64,000 nucleotides of DNA. It comes from Myxococcales bacterium (GTDB taxonomy: Bacteria; Myxococcota; Myxococcia; Myxococcales; Myxococcaceae). Location of the stretch: assembly GCA_020846875.1 (NCBI GenBank), contig JADLDB010000094.1, positions 1-64,000 on the forward strand. Direction: 5' to 3'. A program made the position numbers and the translations under genes. Below are positions 36,606-54,826 of this stretch, piece by piece (within the stretch, counting starts at the first letter, position 1; every line of letters begins with the position of its first letter). The notes below the pieces were generated by a model. The model was not told where the DNA came from and did not search any database. It was given only the letters and a program-made list of their open reading frames with translations.

Positions 36606-39443
36606 TCAGAAGCCTGCGGCCAGCTCGATGTACAGGGTCCGCCCGTACTGCTGCACCGTGCCGAAGCCAGCCTCGGTGGCCACCGGCAGCGTGTACTTCT
36701 GGTCGAGCAGGTTCCGCACCCCGGCGAAGTAGCGCAGCGGGCCGTACTCGCCCTGCAGCCCGAGGTTGATGAGGAAGGCCTCGCCCACGTGGGTGCCGTC
36801 TCCCGCCCGTCGCGCCGACTGGTAGGTCAGCTGCCCGGACAGCCGCACGAAGCCTTCCTTCACCGGCACCAGCGCCTTCAGGGTAGCCAGGTGCTGCGGG
36901 TAGGAGACGGCGTTGGCGTCGACGCCGCCCAGCATGACGAAGCTGTAGGTGGCGTCGACGATGGTCCACCGCCCGGGCTGCCAGCGAAGCTCTGCCTCGG
37001 CGCCGCCGGCGGTGAAGCGGTCCGCCGCGTTGGTGTACACCACGCACTGCACCGGCTCGGTGGGCGAGCCGCAGCGCTCCGGCATGACGTCGTCCTCCTC
37101 GAGGACGATGAGCCGGTCGATGAGGTTGTAGTAGCCGCCCACGGTGAGGCGTAGCTCGGGCGTCAGGTCGTGGCTGTGCTCGGCCTCGAAGGTGGTGATG
37201 ATTTCGGGCTGCTGCGGCTGGTCCGGCCTGCGCTGCGTCTCGTTGTTGTCGCTGAAGTTCAGCTCGTAGATGGTGGGCGCGCGGAAGGCCTGCCCCACCA
37301 CCAGCTTGGTGACGCCGCCCTCGTACAGCTTCGCCACCACCGCGCCGCGCGGGGACAAGGCCACGCCCGGGAGGTCGAAGTACTTGTCGAGGCGCAGGCC
37401 GAGCTGCACGAAGACGCGGCTGATGATCTGCCACTCGTCCAGCAGGGTCCCGCTCAAGAGGACGCGCGTGTAGTGCTCTTCTGGCAGGCCGGTGCCCTGT
37501 TGCCGCACGAGCTGCACATTGCCCTCGAAGGAGGCGGTGAGGCGGTTGCCTTCGAAGAGCGTGATGCCGGCGCGCACCTCGCCGCCGAACCAGTCCGCGC
37601 CGCCCGTGTCGCTGTCGCGGTACTGCTCGCCGTTGCTGTCCAGCTTGGCGTAGTAGCCCCGGTAGCGGCTGCCGTCGTAGCTGGCGCGGCCGTTCAGCGT
37701 CACCCGCGAGAAGGCGTGCTCGTAGCGCAGCTCGGCGAAGCCGCGGGCGTCGGTGTACTCGGTGCCTGCCACGCCCGGGGCCGCACCGTAGGGCGCGGTG
37801 GGGACCTGCTTGCGCCGCTGGTTCAGCTTCCCCAGCAGGGTGAAGCCCTTCCACTCGCCGAGGAGGGACGCGCCCAGCGAGCGCTCGCCGTCCATGCCCT
37901 GCACCAGGGTGCCGTCTGACAGGGGGGTGGTGGGCGCGCCTTCTGCCAGCATTCCCGCGGCGGAGGCCTTCAGCGAGCTGCCTTCGCGCCCCAGCGCGCC
38001 GGTGGCGCGCACCTTGCCGCCGTTCAGATCGCCCACGCCGCCCACCGCCTCCACGTTCCGGCTGCGCTCGATGCGCCGGCGGGGCACCACGTTGATGACG
38101 CCGAAGAAGGCGCCGGTGCCGAAGAGGATGGAGGTGGGCCCGCGCACCACCTCAATCCGCTCCACGTCGGAGAGGTCGACGTCGAAGTCGCGGGCCACGA
38201 AGCCCTGGCCGGCCCACACGTCGTTGAGCGGGTGGCCGTCCCACAGGGTGAGGAGGCGGGTGTTCAGGTCGCCGGGGGGTGAGAAGCCGCGCAGGCCGGC
38301 GTAGGTGTAGATGCGGTCGTCGGTGAAGAAGAAGCCGCGCACGCCGCGCAGCGCCTCCGCGAGCGTCTGGTAGCCCTGGCCCAGCAGCTCCTCGCGGGTG
38401 ATGACGGTCACCGAGGCGGGCGCCTGGTCCACCGAGAGCGCCTGCTTGGAGGCGGCCACCACCTTGGGCGGGGCGTAGCGCAGCTCGGCGTCGACGCGCA
38501 GCTCGCTGTCCTCGGCCACCACCACCCGGCGCACCAGCGGCGTCACCTCTTCGGTGGTGACCTCCACCTCGTACTCGCCCACCGGCAGGGTGAGCACCGT
38601 GGGGGTGAAGCCCGAGTCCTTGCCGTCCACGCGCACCAGCGCTCCGTCGCGGTTGGCCGTCACCACCACCTTCCCCGTGGCCTTCGGCTTCTCCTGCAGG
38701 ACGGCCTTCGCGGTGACGGTCTGGTCGGCCTTCACGTCGAGGAGCAGTTGCTGCGACAGGTGGCCCTTTGCGCTCACCACCAGCAGGCGCTTGCCCGGCA
38801 CCAGCTCCAGGGTGGCGGGCACCTTGCCCAGCTCGGGCCCTTCCGCCGACTCACGGATGGACGCACCTTCGGGCGCGCCCTCGATGGTCGCCTTCCCGAC
38901 GATGATGGAGAGCTCTACCACCTGCTTCACCTCGCGGCCCTTGCCCACCGACACCTTCACCTGCGCGGGGCGGTGGCCTTCCAGCTCGAGGAGGATGGTG
39001 TGGGCGCCCGGCGAGACGGCGAAGGTCTGCGGCGTGCGGCCGCGGCTGCCCAGGTCCTTCCTGTCGACGTAGAGGTCGGCGCCCGGCGGCGTGGAGGTGA
39101 CGGTGACGAGCGCCACGCGCGGGGCGAGGCGGGCCAGGGCCTGCTTCACGTCCTTCCGCTCGTCGGCCGGCAGGGTGGGGTCGACGAAGAGGTCGTTCCA
39201 GTAGCGGTAGGCCTCGTCGAACCTGTCGAGCGCCTCGTAGCAGCGCGCGATGTTGAAGAGCACGTTGCGGTTGGGCACCAGCCGGTACGAGAGGAAGTAG
39301 CTGGCCAGGGCCCTCTCGTAGTCGCGCTTCGAGTAGGCCGCGTTGCCCAGCGAGAAGGCCACGTCCGCCTCGTCGGCGGTGTTGTCGGCCCGCGCCGGGA
39401 AGGCCAGCGCCAGCGCGACGAGGAGGGGCAGGGTGGTGCGCAC
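36606..39443 (-). CDS. TonB-dependent receptor with N-terminal TPR and PEGA domains
   Basis: 945 residues from the GTG at 39443 (a TTG at 39485 is an alternative). The signal is TTLPLLVALALAFPARA. Residues 20-100 are TPR-like (AYSKRDYERALASYFLSYRL). About 105-310 hold three PEGA/carboxypeptidase-regulatory-like beta modules (TSTPPGADLYVDRKDLG, VVVTANRDGALVRVDGKDSG). A plug domain at 325-450 contains the conserved VTVITREEL, LRGVRGF and RIEVVRGPTSILFGTGA. The 22-strand barrel follows and ends RTLYIELAAGF. No TonB box is obvious after the signal because of the TPR/PEGA insertion. It is last in the ECF-sigma operon and probably imports or senses an extracellular ligand. Confidence 0.88.
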   Translation of the reverse strand: MRTTLPLLVALALAFPARADNTADEADVAFSLGNAAYSKRDYERALASYFLSYRLVPNRNVLFNIARCYEALDRFDEAYRYWNDLFVDPTLPADERKDVKQALARLAPRVALVTVTSTPPGADLYVDRKDLGSRGRTPQTFAVSPGAHTILLELEGHRPAQVKVSVGKGREVKQVVELSIIVGKATIEGAPEGASIRESAEGPELGKVPATLELVPGKRLLVVSAKGHLSQQLLLDVKADQTVTAKAVLQEKPKATGKVVVTANRDGALVRVDGKDSGFTPTVLTLPVGEYEVEVTTEEVTPLVRRVVVAEDSELRVDAELRYAPPKVVAASKQALSVDQAPASVTVITREELLGQGYQTLAEALRGVRGFFFTDDRIYTYAGLRGFSPPGDLNTRLLTLWDGHPLNDVWAGQGFVARDFDVDLSDVERIEVVRGPTSILFGTGAFFGVINVVPRRRIERSRNVEAVGGVGDLNGGKVRATGALGREGSSLKASAAGMLAEGAPTTPLSDGTLVQGMDGERSLGASLLGEWKGFTLLGKLNQRRKQVPTAPYGAAPGVAGTEYTDARGFAELRYEHAFSRVTLNGRASYDGSRYRGYYAKLDSNGEQYRDSDTGGADWFGGEVRAGITLFEGNRLTASFEGNVQLVRQQGTGLPEEHYTRVLLSGTLLDEWQIISRVFVQLGLRLDKYFDLPGVALSPRGAVVAKLYEGGVTKLVVGQAFRAPTIYELNFSDNNETQRRPDQPQQPEIITTFEAEHSHDLTPELRLTVGGYYNLIDRLIVLEEDDVMPERCGSPTEPVQCVVYTNAADRFTAGGAEAELRWQPGRWTIVDATYSFVMLGGVDANAVSYPQHLATLKALVPVKEGFVRLSGQLTYQSARRAGDGTHVGEAFLINLGLQGEYGPLRYFAGVRNLLDQKYTLPVATEAGFGTVQQYGRTLYIELAAGF

Positions 39444-39497
39444 GGGAAGCGAGCGCGAGGTTACACGCTGGCCCGGGCCCGACAACGAATCGTCGCG

Positions 39498-41066
39498 CTA
39501 CAGGAAGTGCCAGCTTGCGCCCACGCCAAAGTGGATCTGCGGCAGCACGCCCGAAGCGCGGAAGAGCAGGTGGCCCGCCACCGCCGCGTCGAAGGAGAGC
39601 GAGGGCACCGAAGGCAGGTGCATGGACATGCTGACGCTGGCGGTGCCTGCCGCCACGGGCGTGACGCCGGCGCCGGCGGAAGAAGGTGGCGGGGAGGAGG
39701 CCGGCTGGAGGAAAACCTCGTTGCTGCGCAGCACCAGCGTGGGGCCCAGCGAGAGCGAGAGCGCCAGGCCGCCCCCGCGACCCCAGGCGCTGTCCACCGC
39801 CACCCACACGAAGTCGGTGCCGAACATGGCGCGGTTCGCCTGAAACGTGGTGGGCAGCACGCCGAAGTCCCGAATGAGTTGCTCAGAGAGCGGCGTCGCC
39901 GTGGGGAAGGACACCAGCGCGCGCGCCGCCCGCCACTCGAAGCGCTCCGAGAAGCGCCAGGCGTAGGCGGCCTGCAGCGTCCAGTTGGTGGCGAAGCTTT
40001 CCGGGGACACGCCGCCCTGCAGCGCCACCTGGTGCCGGCCCACCAGCGGTCCGCCCTTCGACGCCAGCCGCGCGTCGCCCACCAGGGTGAGGCTGGCTTC
40101 TTCCACCACGCTGGGCGCGCCTTCCTTCACCTGCACCTCGCGCGAGAGGACGCCTTCGTCGCTGACCCGCCGCACCACGTAGGCCCCGGGCGGGAGCGTC
40201 ACCCGCAGCACCTGCTCGCCCGCGGGCGCCTCCACCACCACCACGCCCGAGGAGAGCTGCACCACCTGCAGCGGGCCTTCCTTTTGCGCGAGGGTGAGCA
40301 GCGTGGGGCTGTGCGAGACGGCGGTCAGCACCACGTCCTGCCGGCCTCGAAGCCGCAGATCGAAGCTGGGGTGCTGCGGGGTGGGGGCGCGCCTCGCCGA
40401 GTCGCGAATGGTGAGGCGGTTGGCGTAGGCGAAGGCCTCCGACAGCGTCACCTGGCCGTCTCCGGTTTGATCCGCCGCGCCCGACAGGCCGGCGACGAGG
40501 TGGTGGGTGAAGAAGCTCCCCTGCAGCGCCTCGGCTTCGTGGGCGTCCTCGAGCCCGGAGCTGGAGGCGAGCAGCGCCATGCCTTCGCTGGACAGCGCGG
40601 TCAGGCCCACCTCGAAGGGCTGGGTGACGGACAGGCCTTTGGCCTGCGTCCACCCGCCGCCGCGGCAACTGTCGATGACGCCTACCCGCACGCCCACCGC
40701 CTCGTCGGACAGGCGCTGCTTGAGCGCGGACAGCGGCAGCGCCGCTCCGCCGGGGTAGAGGGAGTGATCGTCTGCGTGGCCGGAGAAGTAGAAGAGCAGC
40801 ATGGTGTGTGCGCCTCGCGCCTCTGCGCGCGCCTCGTCCAGCGCAAGCAGCACCGCTTCGGGCGAGGGGTCGAGCAGCACGCGCACGTCGCCCGGCTGGA
40901 AGTGGCCCGCGCGGGTCAGCACGCCGGCCATCGCCTGGGCGTCGCGGTGGGCGTACTGAAGCTGCGCGCGCCCGGCGACGGCGGTGTTGCTGCCCACCAC
41001 CACGGCCACGCGGCGCTCGGCTGGCGGGGCGACGGAGAGGAGCAGCGCGGCGAGGGTGGAGATCAT
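39498..41066 (-). CDS. Secreted caspase-like (C14) protein fused to a beta-barrel-like C-terminus
   Basis: 522 residues. The N-terminus MISTLAALLLSVAPPAE is a signal peptide, so the caspase domain should face the periplasm. The domain (18-235) has the p20 core RRVAVVVGSN, the catalytic His97 in YFSGHADD and Cys134 in GVIDSCRGGG. A calcium-loop-like DQTGDGQVTLSE follows near 200. Residues 245-370 are beta-rich and 375-522 look like an outer-membrane barrel that ends in HFGVGASWHFL with a C-terminal aromatic. AAGGAG lies six bases before the ATG, which overlaps the anti-sigma stop (ATGA). Caspase-like domains in bacteria often act in regulated proteolysis; this one could be released or activated at the outer membrane. 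Confidence 0.85.
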   Translation of the reverse strand: MISTLAALLLSVAPPAERRVAVVVGSNTAVAGRAQLQYAHRDAQAMAGVLTRAGHFQPGDVRVLLDPSPEAVLLALDEARAEARGAHTMLLFYFSGHADDHSLYPGGAALPLSALKQRLSDEAVGVRVGVIDSCRGGGWTQAKGLSVTQPFEVGLTALSSEGMALLASSSGLEDAHEAEALQGSFFTHHLVAGLSGAADQTGDGQVTLSEAFAYANRLTIRDSARRAPTPQHPSFDLRLRGRQDVVLTAVSHSPTLLTLAQKEGPLQVVQLSSGVVVVEAPAGEQVLRVTLPPGAYVVRRVSDEGVLSREVQVKEGAPSVVEEASLTLVGDARLASKGGPLVGRHQVALQGGVSPESFATNWTLQAAYAWRFSERFEWRAARALVSFPTATPLSEQLIRDFGVLPTTFQANRAMFGTDFVWVAVDSAWGRGGGLALSLSLGPTLVLRSNEVFLQPASSPPPSSAGAGVTPVAAGTASVSMSMHLPSVPSLSFDAAVAGHLLFRASGVLPQIHFGVGASWHFL

Positions 41067-41689
41067 GGGCGCTCCTTGGGCAGACGGTACTCCAGGGTGA
41101 AGGCGGCTTCGTCACGACGGCCGGCCACGGCGGCCACCGTCGCGTCGCTCAATGGCTCGCGGCTCAACACCACGGCCAGGCGCTCCTCGGTACCTTCGGC
41201 GTCCAGCGTCCACGCGGGCGTCAGCGCGGTGCCGGCGGCTGACGGCTTTGCGGCGTAGAGGATGCGCGGCGCCGCGCCGAGCTGCACGACGGTGAGGTGC
41301 GGGAAGCCGGCCGGCGCCACCTCGAGGCGGATCGCGTCGCCGGGCCTGAGCGGCGCGCCCTGCCATGGGGTGACGGCGTCGCCCCGCTTGATCCACACCG
41401 TCGCGGCCGGCGTGCCTTTGGGCCGCACGTCGTCGTTCCCCCCCAGGCGCGGCGCGGCGAAGACGGCCAGCAGCGCGGCCACTGCGCCAGCCAGCGCGAA
41501 GCCGGGCAGGCGCCAGCGCGACGGCGGGGGGCGCGCCACCAAGTCCAGCCAGGCCGGCCGGGGCAACGGCACCTGCGCCGCGGCGACGTGGCTTCGGCAG
41601 GCCTCGCAGGACTCCACGTGCCGCGCGAGTTCTTCGGGCGCCGCGTCCAGGGCGTAGCGATCGAGCGCGAGGTGGGACGGGTGGCTCAT
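41063..41689 (-). CDS. Zinc-finger anti-sigma factor
   Basis: 208 residues. The anti-sigma domain includes His24, Cys28 and Cys31 in HVESCEAC, a ZAS-type zinc site. One transmembrane segment, GFALAGAVAALLAVFAAPRL, spans about 62-81, followed by a periplasmic domain with VWIKRGDAVTPWQGAPLRPG. GAGGAG lies before the ATG. It should bind and hold the ECF sigma factor encoded immediately upstream until a periplasmic signal frees it. Start and stop overlap both neighbours by four bases (ATGA). Confidence 0.88.
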   Translation of the reverse strand: MSHPSHLALDRYALDAAPEELARHVESCEACRSHVAAAQVPLPRPAWLDLVARPPPSRWRLPGFALAGAVAALLAVFAAPRLGGNDDVRPKGTPAATVWIKRGDAVTPWQGAPLRPGDAIRLEVAPAGFPHLTVVQLGAAPRILYAAKPSAAGTALTPAWTLDAEGTEERLAVVLSREPLSDATVAAVAGRRDEAAFTLEYRLPKERP

Positions 41690-42162
41690 GGCAGCTCTCC
41701 TCGCAGGTGGGCGGTGCGCGCGTCGAAGCGCTCCAGCAGGCGTCGCACGGTGCGCTCGGAGACCCCCAGCACCTCGGCGGCCTCGGGCTGGGTGAGGCCG
41801 TCGATGCGGGCCAGCAGCGCACACTCCAATTCGTCCCTCGGGGCGTCCTTCGCCACCCGCAGCAGCACCCGGCGCGCTTCCAGCCCCACCTCGGGGGGCT
41901 GCGCGACGGCGTCGGACGGAGGCACTGCGTCGCGAACGGACTTCGCACGCAGGTGGTCGATCGCCAGGTGGGTGGCCGTCTTGTAGATCCACGCGGTGAC
42001 GCGCCGCGAGTCCTGCTCGGGGAGGCGGGCGCGCCACAGCCGGACGAAGGTGTCCTGGGCGAGGTCCTGCGCGGTGTCGAAGTCTCCGAGCATGCGGCGA
42101 CACTTCTGGCGGATGAGCGGAAAGAACCGCCGGTACAGGCGATCGATGTCTGCGGCGCTCAA
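41686..42162 (-). CDS. ECF-family RNA polymerase sigma factor
   Basis: 158 residues. Region 2 has FDTAQDLAQDTFVRLWRAR and the DNA-melting RRVTAWIYKTATHLAIDHLR; region 4 has IDGLTQPEAAEVLGVSERTVRRLLER. The start codon is TTG at 42162: GGGAGG ends five bases before it. A GTG at 42168 lies within that Shine-Dalgarno and is therefore unlikely. The gene heads the operon and probably drives its own transcription when the anti-sigma factor releases it. Confidence 0.9.
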   Translation of the reverse strand: MSAADIDRLYRRFFPLIRQKCRRMLGDFDTAQDLAQDTFVRLWRARLPEQDSRRVTAWIYKTATHLAIDHLRAKSVRDAVPPSDAVAQPPEVGLEARRVLLRVAKDAPRDELECALLARIDGLTQPEAAEVLGVSERTVRRLLERFDARTAHLRGELP

Positions 42163-42227
42163 CGCCACCTCCCTGCGCGTCTAGACGGGCCAGCGCTGAG
42201 AATCCGGCCACCCCCGGCTGACTTTCT

Positions 42228-47225: not shown

Positions 47226-47657
47226 TCACCCTCCAGCTGGTGGCGCAGAGAATGGGTTCTCGAGGCGGACGCCTGCGAGCGTGGCGCCGCCGTGGAGGTC
47301 CTCCGAGAGCAGCCGCTCACACCCGGCATCGGAGGCGCAGCGGAGGATCAACGCGTCCCAGAAGGACAGCGAGTGCAGCCGGTGGAGGTCGATGGCTCCG
47401 AGGATGTGCTCGACGCGAACGGCGATCACCTCGAAGCCGAGGTAGATCTCCAGGCGCGCCCGGGCACGCGCTGGCTCGAGCCCGAGCTTCCTCGTCGCGT
47501 TCACGAAGTACTCCTGCAGCACCTGGGTGGAGACGACGCCGGTGGCCGTCTCCAGGGCTTCTGTCAGCAGCGCCCGCGCCCGATCGCGCTTGTCCCGCGA
47601 GTCTTCGTCGTCGGCGTACAGCAGCACGTTGGTGTCGAAGAAGACGCGAGAGGTCAC
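47226..47657 (-). CDS. vapC: PIN-domain toxin (VapC family)
   Basis: 143 residues from a GTG at 47657 with GAGGA five bases upstream. The four acidic residues of the PIN nuclease site are present: Asp8 in VFFDTNVLLY, Glu49 in VLQEYF, Asp101 in SFWDALI and Asp120 in LSEDLHGG. VapC toxins cleave tRNA or rRNA and are neutralised by the antitoxin encoded upstream. The GTGA overlap with the antitoxin stop is typical of toxin-antitoxin pairs. Confidence 0.88.
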   Translation of the reverse strand: MTSRVFFDTNVLLYADDEDSRDKRDRARALLTEALETATGVVSTQVLQEYFVNATRKLGLEPARARARLEIYLGFEVIAVRVEHILGAIDLHRLHSLSFWDALILRCASDAGCERLLSEDLHGGATLAGVRLENPFSAPPAGG

Positions 47658-47887
47658 GTGTGGTCCTCGTAGGCTTCTTCCCGCGCGATCTTCCGCCCGC
47701 CGGAGTGCCCACCGCCTTCCGCCCAGAGGCGCCGCAGGTGCTCGACGGCGCTGCGCCGGTGACGGCTGCCCGCCAGCTCTTCGAGGTACTCGCGGATCAA
47801 CGCATTGAGGCTGGTGCCCCGCTTGAGCGCGGCCTGGCGCGCGCGCTCGAGCGTCACCTCATCGACCGACAGCGTGACGTTCTTCAT
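47654..47887 (-). CDS. vapB: Ribbon-helix-helix antitoxin (VapB-like)
   Basis: 77 residues from the ATG at 47887. MKNVTLSVDEVTLERARQAA is the RHH DNA-binding beta strand and helix, followed by the second helix TSLNALIREYLEELAG. The charged tail (RHRRSAVEHLRRLWAEGGG) would wrap the toxin. It overlaps the toxin gene by four bases and precedes it, the standard order. A palindrome just upstream (47891-47903) is a candidate operator for autoregulation. Upstream codons to 47923 are unlikely to be used. Confidence 0.85.
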   Translation of the reverse strand: MKNVTLSVDEVTLERARQAALKRGTSLNALIREYLEELAGSRHRRSAVEHLRRLWAEGGGHSGGRKIAREEAYEDHT

Positions 47888-47890
47888 GAA

Positions 47891-47903
47891 CACATGGTAT
47901 GTG
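47891..47903. promoter_or_regulatory. Candidate operator of the toxin-antitoxin pair
   Basis: CACAT-GGT-ATGTG is a perfect 5-bp inverted repeat, three bases upstream of the antitoxin ATG and overlapping GTGCGCAC, another palindrome. RHH antitoxins usually bind such sites to repress their own operon. The position fits, but the pattern is short. Confidence 0.4.
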
Positions 47904-52927: not shown

Positions 52928-54826
52928 ATGGCCCTGCCCCGACTGACGGAACCCCTGGTGCGAGAGAGCGGCCGGCTGCGACCGGCGACGTGGGACGAAG
53001 CGCTGGAGGTGGCGGCGCGCGGCTTCGCGGCGACGAAGCAGGCGCACGGCCCCCACGCCATCGGCTGCTTCAGCTGCTCGAAGGCCACCAACGAGGTGAA
53101 CTACATCGCGCAGAAGTTCATGCGGGGGGCGATCGGCTCCAACCACATCGACAGCTGCAACCGGACCTGACACGCCCCCAGCGTCGTCGGTCTGGCGACG
53201 GTCTTCGGAGCAGGCGGCGGCACTTCCTCCTACCGCGAGGTGGAGGAGACGGACCTGATCGTCCTCTGGGGTTCCAACGCGCGGGAGACGCACCCCATCT
53301 TCTTCCACCACGTGCTGAAGGCGATTCACCGGGGCGCGAAGGTGTACGTGGTGGATCCGCGGCGAACGGCCACCGCCGAGTGGGCGGACGGCTGGCTGCC
53401 GGTGCACGTGGGGGCGGACATCGCGCTGGCGAACGCGGTGGCGGCGACCATTCTGGAAGAGGGCCTTGCCAACCGGGAGTTCATCCGGCGGGCCACGTCG
53501 GGCTTCGAGGAGTGGGAGGCGTACACGAGGAGCCACACGCCGGAGAAGGTGGCGTCCATCACCGGGGTGGAGCCGTCTCTGGTGCGGCGGCTGGCGCGGG
53601 ACTACGCGCGGGCGGATCGGGCGATGATCTGCTGGACGCTTGGCATCACGGAGCACCACAACGGGGTGGACAACGTGCTGGGGCTCATCAACCTGGCGCT
53701 GGTGACGGGGCACGTGGGGAGGTGGGGTTCGGGGCTCAACCCGTTGCGTGGGCAGAACAACGTGCAGGGCGGCGGGGACATGGGCGCGTTGCCGAACAAG
53801 CTGCCTGGCTTCGAGGACGTAGAGAGCGCGGCCGCGCGGGCGAAGTGGGAGGCGCTGTGGGGGCGGCCGATTCCTCCGAAGCAGGGGCTGCACCTGACGG
53901 GGATGTTCGAGGCGATGGCGCACGGCCAGCTGCGCGCCCTGTACGTGCTGGGGGAGAACCCGGCGCAGTCGGAGGCGGACAAGACGCGCACCATCAAACT
54001 GCTGGCGGGGCTCGATCACCTGGTGGTGCAGGACATCGTGCGGACGAAGACGGCGGAGCTGGCGCACGTGGTGTTGCCGGCGAGCGTGAGCTTCTGCGAG
54101 TCGGAGGGGACGGTGACGAGTTCCGAGCGGCGGGTGCAGCGGGTGCGCAAGGCGCTGGCCCCGCCGGGGCAGGCGCGGGACGACATCGACATCACCTGTG
54201 AGCTGTCGAAGCGGCTGGGGTACGACATGGGCATGCCGGCGCCGAAGCAGGCGTGGGACGAGCTGCGCAGGGCGAGCCCGCTGCACGGGGGGATGAGCTA
54301 CGAGCGGCTGGAGGCGCTGGGAGGAATCCAGTGGCCGTGTCCGGACGAGACGAGCGAGGGGCAGCGCTTCCTGCACGCGCGGCTGTGGAAGGAGCCGGTG
54401 GAAGGGCGGCGGGCGCCGTTCCACGTGGTGCACGACGAGCCGCCGGTGGAGGCGCTGGACAGAGACTACCCCTTGAGGCTCACGACGGGCCGGCGGCTGG
54501 ACTCTTTCAACACCGGCGTGCTGTCGCGCGGCTACGAGAGTCCGCGGCGTCTTGGAGAGACGGTCGACCTCTCTCCGCACGACGCGGGGGCGTTGGGGGT
54601 GCAGGAGGGAGAGAAGGTGCGGGTGGTGAGCCGGCGTGGAGCGGTGGTGGCGCCGGTGCGGGTGGATCCGGGCCTGCGGCGTGGGTTGGTCTTCATGACC
54701 TTCCACTTCCCGGACGAAGTGGACACCAACCAGCTCACCATCGACGCGGCGGATCCGCGATCTGGCACAGCGGAGTTCAAGGCAGCGGCGGTGCGAGTCG
54801 AGCGGCTCGAGGCGCCCCAACGCTGA
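52928..54826 (+). CDS. fdhA: Formate dehydrogenase catalytic subunit, selenocysteine-containing, lacking the N-terminal 4Fe-4S domain
   Basis: 632 residues including selenocysteine at position 81, encoded by TGA at 53168-53170. The frame is open on both sides, and the context NHIDSCNRT-U-HAPSVVGLAT is that of formate dehydrogenases, where Sec or Cys binds molybdenum/tungsten and the next His helps catalysis. Later motifs: LIVLWGSNARETHPIF, YVVDPRRTATAEWAD, QNNVQGGGDMGALPN, LGENPAQSEAD, VLPASVSFCESEGTVTSSER and the MopB domain RLTTGRRLDSFNTGVLSRG, all pterin contacts. A normal alpha subunit begins with a CxxCxxxC 4Fe-4S domain ending in GRFGFxFV; here it starts MALPRLTEPLVRESGRL, exactly after that point, and the missing part is in the last gene of the operon. 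It is paired with NuoEF- and HoxU-like subunits to reduce NAD+ with formate, or run in reverse. Confidence 0.9.
53168..53200 (+). promoter_or_regulatory. UGA selenocysteine codon and bacterial SECIS hairpin
   Basis: After the TGA, 11 bases precede a perfect 7-bp stem, CGTCGTC (53182-53188) with GGCGACG (53194-53200), capped by the loop GGTCT (53189-53193). The spacing from TGA to GGTCT is 18 bases, the same as in the known E. coli fdhF element, and the loop is the SelB-recognised GGUCU. The downstream half of the stem stays inside the coding frame. This supports decoding of the TGA as selenocysteine. Confidence 0.9.

Follow-up and report, generated by a model that had tools for sequence, protein, structure and literature searches.

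A conserved ECF sigma, anti-sigma and caspase gene trio of Myxococcota with a shared Lys-Gly motif suggestive of proteolytic signalling

Results

Gene organization of the locus

We analysed a 64,000-nucleotide stretch of DNA from a Myxococcales bacterium (assembly GCA_020846875.1, contig JADLDB010000094.1, positions 1 to 64,000; here called the window), which carries on its minus strand an operon for an extracytoplasmic function (ECF) sigma factor, a membrane-bound zinc-type anti-sigma factor and an exported caspase-like protease. The sigma factor (41686..42168, 160 amino acids, GTG start at 42168) has the sigma2 and sigma4 domains and carries no long extension, as identified by matches to Sigma70_r2 (E=1.5e-15), Sigma70_r4_2 (E=4.4e-8) and TIGR02937 (E=4.1e-18). 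The anti-sigma factor (41063..41689, 208 amino acids) has an HxxxCxxC domain and one membrane helix, as zinc (class I) anti-sigma factors do, and the caspase-like protein (39498..41066, 522 amino acids) has a signal peptide and a caspase fold matched by PF00656 (E=1.4e-13). The three genes are joined by two 4-base ATGA overlaps, since the sigma gene ends at 41686 and the anti-sigma gene starts at 41689, while the latter ends at 41063 and the caspase gene starts at 41066. A TPR-PEGA-TonB receptor gene follows on the same strand.

The initial annotation of this DNA described these four genes, in this order and with overlaps among the first three, as one operon at 36606-42162. The order, the common strand and the overlaps are as described, and so are the ECF sigma factor, the zinc-finger anti-sigma factor and the caspase with intact His97 and Cys134. 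The span has to be corrected: the GTG start at 42168, the promoter-like site and the exclusion of the receptor (see below) define a conserved unit of approximately 39498-42210.

The annotation had suggested looking for an ECF-type promoter upstream of 42168, and a promoter-like site, TGGCCGGATT-N13-CGTC, is indeed present at 42184..42210 on the minus strand, 16-42 bp upstream of the sigma start. It matches TGGCCGGTTT-N13-CGTC, which precedes the sigma gene in related trios and always has a spacer of 13 nt; one subgroup of trios has the variants TGTCCGCTTT...CGTT. Motif scores of at least 14 were obtained for 11 of 69 real upstream regions, compared with 2 of 690 shuffled ones. Across the 7.06 Mb genome the motif is matched perfectly only before this operon, a weak result given that this very site helped to define the pattern. 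A genome-wide regulon defined by the motif was rejected, as matches with one mismatch were equally frequent in the genome and in the reversed control (8 vs 8). From the motif shared before the sigma genes of related trios, we infer that the operon may be autoregulated.

Conservation of the sigma/anti-sigma/caspase linkage

Around relatives of the caspase, most of the ~70 loci surveyed have the order sigma, anti-sigma, caspase, usually with the same -4 overlaps; the trios of this first survey belong to Myxococcaceae and to two Fibrobacteria contigs. The linkage was then counted by comparison of coordinates in 26 genomes from 26 genera. A PF00656 caspase lies directly downstream of 70 of the 88 relatives of the anti-sigma factor, and an anti-sigma gene directly upstream of 70 of the 118 PF00656 matches. 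When the 18 exceptions were read, seven turned out to be normal trios whose caspase had been missed by PF00656, which brings the linked anti-sigmas to 77/88, and in three others (L144, L145, L151) the caspase adjoins in another orientation. In these three loci and in L155, the caspase precedes the sigma/anti-sigma pair or has a convergent or divergent orientation relative to it, which indicates that the linkage goes beyond one fixed operon.

With the caspase profile, matches were obtained in 158 of 193 genomes sampled from the phylum Myxococcota, often with several copies per genome, and the reading of individual loci showed trios in several further families and orders. The recurrence of the ATGA-overlapping trio at dozens of loci is more than expected by chance. 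The two observations that the annotation had regarded as fatal to its proposal, an inconsistent linkage of the caspase to the pair and a loss of the catalytic residues in most orthologues, were not made: the linkage is consistent, and His and Cys are kept in all 91 linked caspases. The trio is almost certainly a functional unit.

The TonB receptor is a neighbour of the trio

The receptor gene (36606-39443 or 39485, minus strand) encodes TPR, three PEGA, Plug and TonB barrel domains, the architecture given in the annotation. It is separated from the caspase gene by 12-54 nt, depending on the start codon, without overlap. The annotation had seen in it the sensor of a FecIRA-type cell-surface signalling system, with the caspase as transmitter. 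This locus does resemble FecIRA in having an ECF sigma gene beside an anti-sigma gene and, in this window only, a TonB receptor beside the pair; the physical gene order in this one window is what speaks for such a system. In contrast to FecIRA, the receptor has no match to the STN domain at E up to 1, its N-terminus being formed by TPR and PEGA, and the anti-sigma is not of the FecR type, with no FecR match in Pfam at E up to 1 and relatives of the zf-HC2 type instead. The receptor is also not conserved with the pair. An orthologue with ~50-70% identity, usually in single copy, is found in 49 of 58 genomes of the family, and in the other genomes it is located elsewhere, in complete ones far from every listed caspase (for example at 1.02 Mb in G003, with caspases at 3.89 and 8.24 Mb; at 11.76 Mb in G007, with the nearest caspase at 12.19 Mb). 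No other trio that we read has a match to this receptor beside it, and no copy of the sigma promoter motif precedes the receptor gene. The receptor was thus rejected as a fourth component and is very probably unrelated to the trio. With no STN domain and its orthologues elsewhere, the FecIRA-like interpretation fails; we regard it as highly improbable, and the TonB-receptor idea can be retired for this locus.

The anti-sigma factor has a nearly invariant Lys-Gly next to the membrane

The anti-sigma factor of the window has no Pfam match of its own, and among 19 homologues zf-HC2 was found in three and DUF4384 in two. Its zinc motif is formed by H24, C28 and C31 (H24-x3-C28-x2-C31), which are kept in 47, 46 and 46 members, respectively, of a set of 48 non-identical trios. 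The structure model (mf5235176be35, predicted local distance difference test score, pLDDT, of 84.3) places the membrane helix at residues 64-78, followed by a disordered stretch (79-88) and by an Ig-like/DUF4384-like periplasmic domain (~92-208). A fold search with this domain retrieved Ig-like folds, with a best Z of 8.2 and no specific family.

The median pairwise identity of the trio anti-sigmas is 25%. When the alignment columns are ranked by entropy, G92, H24 and K91 come out best, followed by C28 and C31. K91 and G92 (codons at 41414..41419, minus strand) are each conserved in 47 of 48 sequences, a level equal to or above that of the zinc ligands, and form a predicted cleavage site located 7-20 residues past the membrane helix in the 48-trio set, at the edge of the disordered stretch and directly before the periplasmic domain. 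The exception at K91, in L041, is an alignment shift (ITAKGLG), and the anti-sigma of L104 has K-D in place of K-G. The dipeptide is kept even in two Fibrobacteria anti-sigmas that do not have the zinc Cys residues, whereas in control zf-HC2 anti-sigmas without a caspase, from the same genomes, it occurs in the same stretch in only 2 of 27. In the anti-sigma shared by L041 and L099 (265 amino acids) the zinc domain is apparently duplicated N-terminally, with two HPSxLxLDRLALG...C..C units.

Fold, active site and predicted anchor of the caspase

The AlphaFold2 model of the caspase (m89801a5b50fb, mean pLDDT 71.6, from a 20-sequence alignment) consists of a signal-peptide helix, a caspase fold predicted with good confidence (18-250), a beta-sandwich (246-330), a disordered linker (334-341) and, with low confidence, an eight-stranded domain resembling an outer-membrane barrel (residues 344-521, 39504..40037, minus strand). 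A fold search with the caspase part gave Z scores of ~19-20 to metacaspase-4, caspase-7 and MALT1. No sequence relatives were found in the PDB with a single-sequence query, and only the profile reached metacaspases.

The catalytic residues His97 (codon 40776..40778) and Cys134, in the motif IDSCRG (codon 40665..40667, both on the minus strand), are present in all 48 caspases of the trio set and in all 91 linked caspases. D42, D132 and K143 are likewise found in 91/91, and E173 in 90/91. In a profile alignment D42 and D132 correspond to Asp365 and Asp462 of MALT1 and to Asp95 and Asp211 of TbMCA2, and in our own alignment E173 corresponds to Glu500 of MALT1. These MALT1 and TbMCA2 residues bind the basic P1 residue of the substrate (PMC4357240), and the acidic S1 residues D42, D132 and E173 therefore predict cleavage after Lys or Arg. 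On this sequence evidence the protein is, with good probability, an active protease with a preference for basic P1 residues.

An aromatic residue within the last three positions, found in 41 of 48 caspase homologues compared with 20% of the other proteins encoded at the same loci, fits the assignment of the modelled C-terminal domain as an outer-membrane barrel. The topology of eight-stranded outer-membrane barrels would put an attached caspase domain in the periplasm, from which we place the predicted protease domain there. A reading of the caspase as part of a defence system was set aside, as the PADLOC 'caspase' match is marginal only (E=6.6e-4).

A Lys-Gly motif shared by the anti-sigma factor and the caspase

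The caspase alignment has only two near-invariant Lys columns, K143 and K337, and both are usually followed by Gly. K143-G144 (codons 40635..40640, minus strand; K and G in 48/48) is located nine residues past the catalytic Cys, near the usual processing region of caspases, ~14 residues past strand 4, in a loop (136-164) with pLDDT below 50. K337-G338 (codons 40053..40058, minus strand; K in 47/48, followed by G in 40/48) is in the linker before the barrel (334-341), also with pLDDT below 50. Both are predicted self-processing sites. With K91 of the anti-sigma factor included, one dipeptide thus marks three segments, those where a cut would switch on the protease, set it free and release the sigma factor.

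In L153, a divergent trio, each of the three sites is Arg-Gly (FSA-RG-G in the anti-sigma, AYG-RG-PGG and VAT-RG-AA in the caspase), a covariation that is a single clear case rather than statistical evidence. Both caspase sites also have Arg in the caspase L214, which is unlinked, and four close caspases without a linked anti-sigma (L089, L173, L175 and L176) lack both Lys sites. A second caspase type (HGTLARD/CHSGxGKS) is also found behind a sigma/anti-sigma pair, in eight examples, and all eight anti-sigmas have G-x-K-G past the membrane helix. The caspases of this type carry their KG in a short N-terminal linker ahead of the protease domain or next to the lipobox that most of them have, so that the motif again divides a membrane anchor from a functional domain. 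At the level of sequence, the shared motif suggests, and indirectly backs, a cutting of the periplasmic part of the anti-sigma by the caspase, one of the possibilities raised in the annotation.

Genes accompanying the caspase and other features of the window

The gene downstream of the caspase was considered as a common substrate and rejected, because the genes in this position vary between loci. In one subgroup (L075-L086 and L091) a conserved lipoprotein of ~310-325 amino acids ('GGNFSNDDLEFLNALP'), which has no conserved KG, is closely coupled to the caspase in a four-gene operon. In L095, L096 and L097 the caspase gene is followed by one for a Cys-rich lipoprotein (92-99 amino acids) with 'REQLIRDFGVLP' or a variant of it, which nearly equals a loop of the C-terminal barrel of the window caspase (residues ~391-404, SEQLIRDFGVLP); these lipoproteins are possibly a mimic or ligand of the caspase barrel. 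In L100, a repetitive protein encoded ~390 bp past the caspase starts with repeated ASVKGYSA units, that is, a repeated Lys-Gly. Downstream of the KG-containing anti-sigma of L137, two zinc metalloprotease-like genes (HESGHxLGLxHS) take the place of the caspase. L089, L173, L175 and L176 form a caspase subgroup without sigma or anti-sigma, with proteins of 392-434 amino acids that have no barrel and a small gene after the caspase gene; in L089 the product of this small gene is, judged by eye, cyclic-nucleotide-binding-protein-like.

Elsewhere in the 64-kb window, no Rfam families or tRNAs were found. A PIN-domain toxin and antitoxin-like small gene pair, judged by eye, is present at 47226-47893 (minus strand). 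A formate-dehydrogenase-like gene at 52928-54826 (plus strand) has an in-frame TGA at 53168-53170 within SCNRT-U-HAPSVVGLATVFG, the position expected for the catalytic selenocysteine, and it likely encodes a selenoprotein, which gene callers would break into two genes.

Discussion

Proposed mechanism and its alternatives

Our preferred interpretation, to which we give a probability of about 0.58, is that of a self-regulated three-gene operon in which the caspase processes itself and cleaves the anti-sigma factor. It builds on the computed linkage, the catalytic and S1 residues, the conserved K-G sites and the promoter motif, from which we infer that the sites are cut, by this caspase and in this order, as well as the membrane topology and the signal. 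The ECF sigma factor would be held at the inner membrane by the one-helix zinc anti-sigma, while the secreted caspase would have its protease domain in the periplasm and its C-terminal barrel anchored in the outer membrane. An envelope signal, for which the Ig-like/DUF4384-like domain of the anti-sigma and the barrel of the caspase are the sensor candidates, would switch the caspase on. It would then cut itself after K143, in the activation loop, and after K337, leaving the barrel, and serve as the site-1 protease of the anti-sigma, with the cut after K91, just outside the membrane. The removal of the anti-sigma would be finished by a site-2 protease (the PF02163 family is present in the same genome, best E=6.7e-64), and the freed sigma factor would transcribe its own operon from the TGGCCGGATT-N13-CGTC promoter, in a positive feedback. 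Self-cleavage at K143 and/or K337 appears likely, and the cut at K91 by the caspase seems somewhat less assured, although we favour it.

Several observations weigh against this interpretation. The sequences are related by descent, so that the counts overstate their independence, and the barrel model has a low confidence (~55 pLDDT). The K337 site is sometimes KR, KS or KL instead of KG, K143-KG occurs in more distant caspases for which no anti-sigma was found nearby (e.g. L166 and L172), and several unlinked close caspases retain both sites, which means that these two sites cannot serve to diagnose a trio. The caspases of the second type have KG at an N-terminal lipid anchor and yet keep a barrel-like C-terminus, so the idea of a release from the membrane is not simply transferable to them. 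Finally, the anti-sigmas of L137, L141 (on a short contig) and L147 have KG without a nearby caspase, and the dipeptide may therefore be structural or served in trans.

These three anti-sigmas also lend some weight to a different view, that the switch has the caspase as its output rather than being triggered by it: the pair would sense envelope stress otherwise (e.g. through a DegS-type protease), the induced exported protease would hit other targets or kill the cell, and the K-G of the anti-sigma would be a structural or feedback site. The position of the caspase gene at the end of an operon that appears to be autoregulated would suit an output, and for myxobacteria a role of metacaspases as executors of cell death has been proposed (PMC3501461). 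This view does not account for one invariant dipeptide being shared between the anti-sigma and two caspase linkers, for the rarity of this dipeptide in other zf-HC2 anti-sigmas or for the Arg-Gly found at each of the three sites in L153, and we consider the view unlikely, though not negligibly so. A purely structural role, with the anti-sigma KG as the start of the Ig-like fold (e.g. a tight turn) and the caspase KGs independent of it, would agree with the position of K91-G92 immediately before the first strand (E95-102), where pLDDT rises, and with the common conservation of Gly at domain boundaries. A turn would not account for a Lys that is invariant to the same degree as the Gly, nor for the persistence of KG between anti-sigmas at 11-25% identity with differing spacing after the motif, and in L153 the Lys to Arg change of the anti-sigma comes together with that of the caspase sites; we find this explanation improbable.

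Relation to known systems

The annotation stated that it knew of no system with these four parts in the same order, which is too strong in view of sigma/metacaspase operons and of Craspase. Operons with sigma-70 family and metacaspase genes were reported in 2012 in Myxococcus xanthus, Anaeromyxobacter, Haliangium, Sorangium, Ralstonia and Fibrobacter, with four of the five metacaspases of M. xanthus in such operons (Asplund-Samuelsson et al. 2012, PMC3501461). The operon type is the same, with ATGA overlaps here and in the relatives, whereas the part of the report considered here contains nothing on an anti-sigma, a sensor domain, a cleavage motif, a membrane anchor, a promoter or a mechanism. 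In the openly accessible literature, a scope outside which the main ECF classification lies (doi 10.1093/nar/gkaa1229), we found no anti-sigma, motif or mechanism for the sigma/metacaspase operons. The operon type has thus been known since 2012, and the anti-sigma, the shared K-G motif and the proposed mechanism are new here.

By mechanism, the nearest known system is Craspase, which cuts a sigma inhibitor. In this system Cas7-11/Csx29 (TPR-CHAT) cleaves Csx30, the inhibitor of the ECF factor CASP-sigma (PMC10028731), so that, as proposed for the trio, a caspase-like protease frees an ECF sigma factor by cutting its inhibitor, and positive autoregulation has been proposed. The Craspase protease is RNA-activated and of the CHAT type, and Csx30 is not a membrane zinc anti-sigma; in contrast, the trio combines an exported C14 protease with a membrane zinc anti-sigma. 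The window caspase has no CHAT match at E up to 1, and no CRISPR part was seen, with no genome-wide CRISPR search made. An association of ECF54 with CHAT is also on record (PMC8999054).

The classical counterpart in the envelope is the cleavage of RseA, the anti-sigma factor of E. coli sigma-E, by DegS and RseP (PMC8103513), where an envelope signal leads to a periplasmic site-1 cut of a one-helix anti-sigma, followed by a site-2 protease. There the site-1 enzyme is a serine PDZ protease encoded outside the sigma operon, whereas here it would be a cysteine protease, encoded with its predicted substrate and with a predicted tether in the outer membrane. Metacaspases, MALT1 and the C11 protease PmC11, clan CD enzymes with a basic P1, have in common with the window caspase the fold, the His/Cys dyad and the acidic S1 residues, and PmC11 self-cleaves after Lys147 (PMC4850288), but none of them is described there as controlling a sigma factor from an outer-membrane anchor.

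Implications

Bacterial relatives of caspases are mostly discussed as cell-death enzymes, and few of their native substrates are known. The analysis names a candidate substrate and an exact bond, K91-G92 of the anti-sigma factor, for a caspase family present in most of the Myxococcota genomes sampled. Whether the trios form a phylum-wide family of envelope signalling systems, with a tethered caspase as the dedicated site-1 protease and one K/R-G motif used three times, is in our estimate close to evenly balanced, with a slight lean in favour. If this is correct, the trio would constitute a proteolytic cascade from the outer to the inner membrane with a built-in positive feedback, an independent parallel to DegS-RseA and Craspase. 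Caspases would then relay signals that connect the outer membrane to gene expression, a role that would help to explain their high numbers in multicellular myxobacteria.

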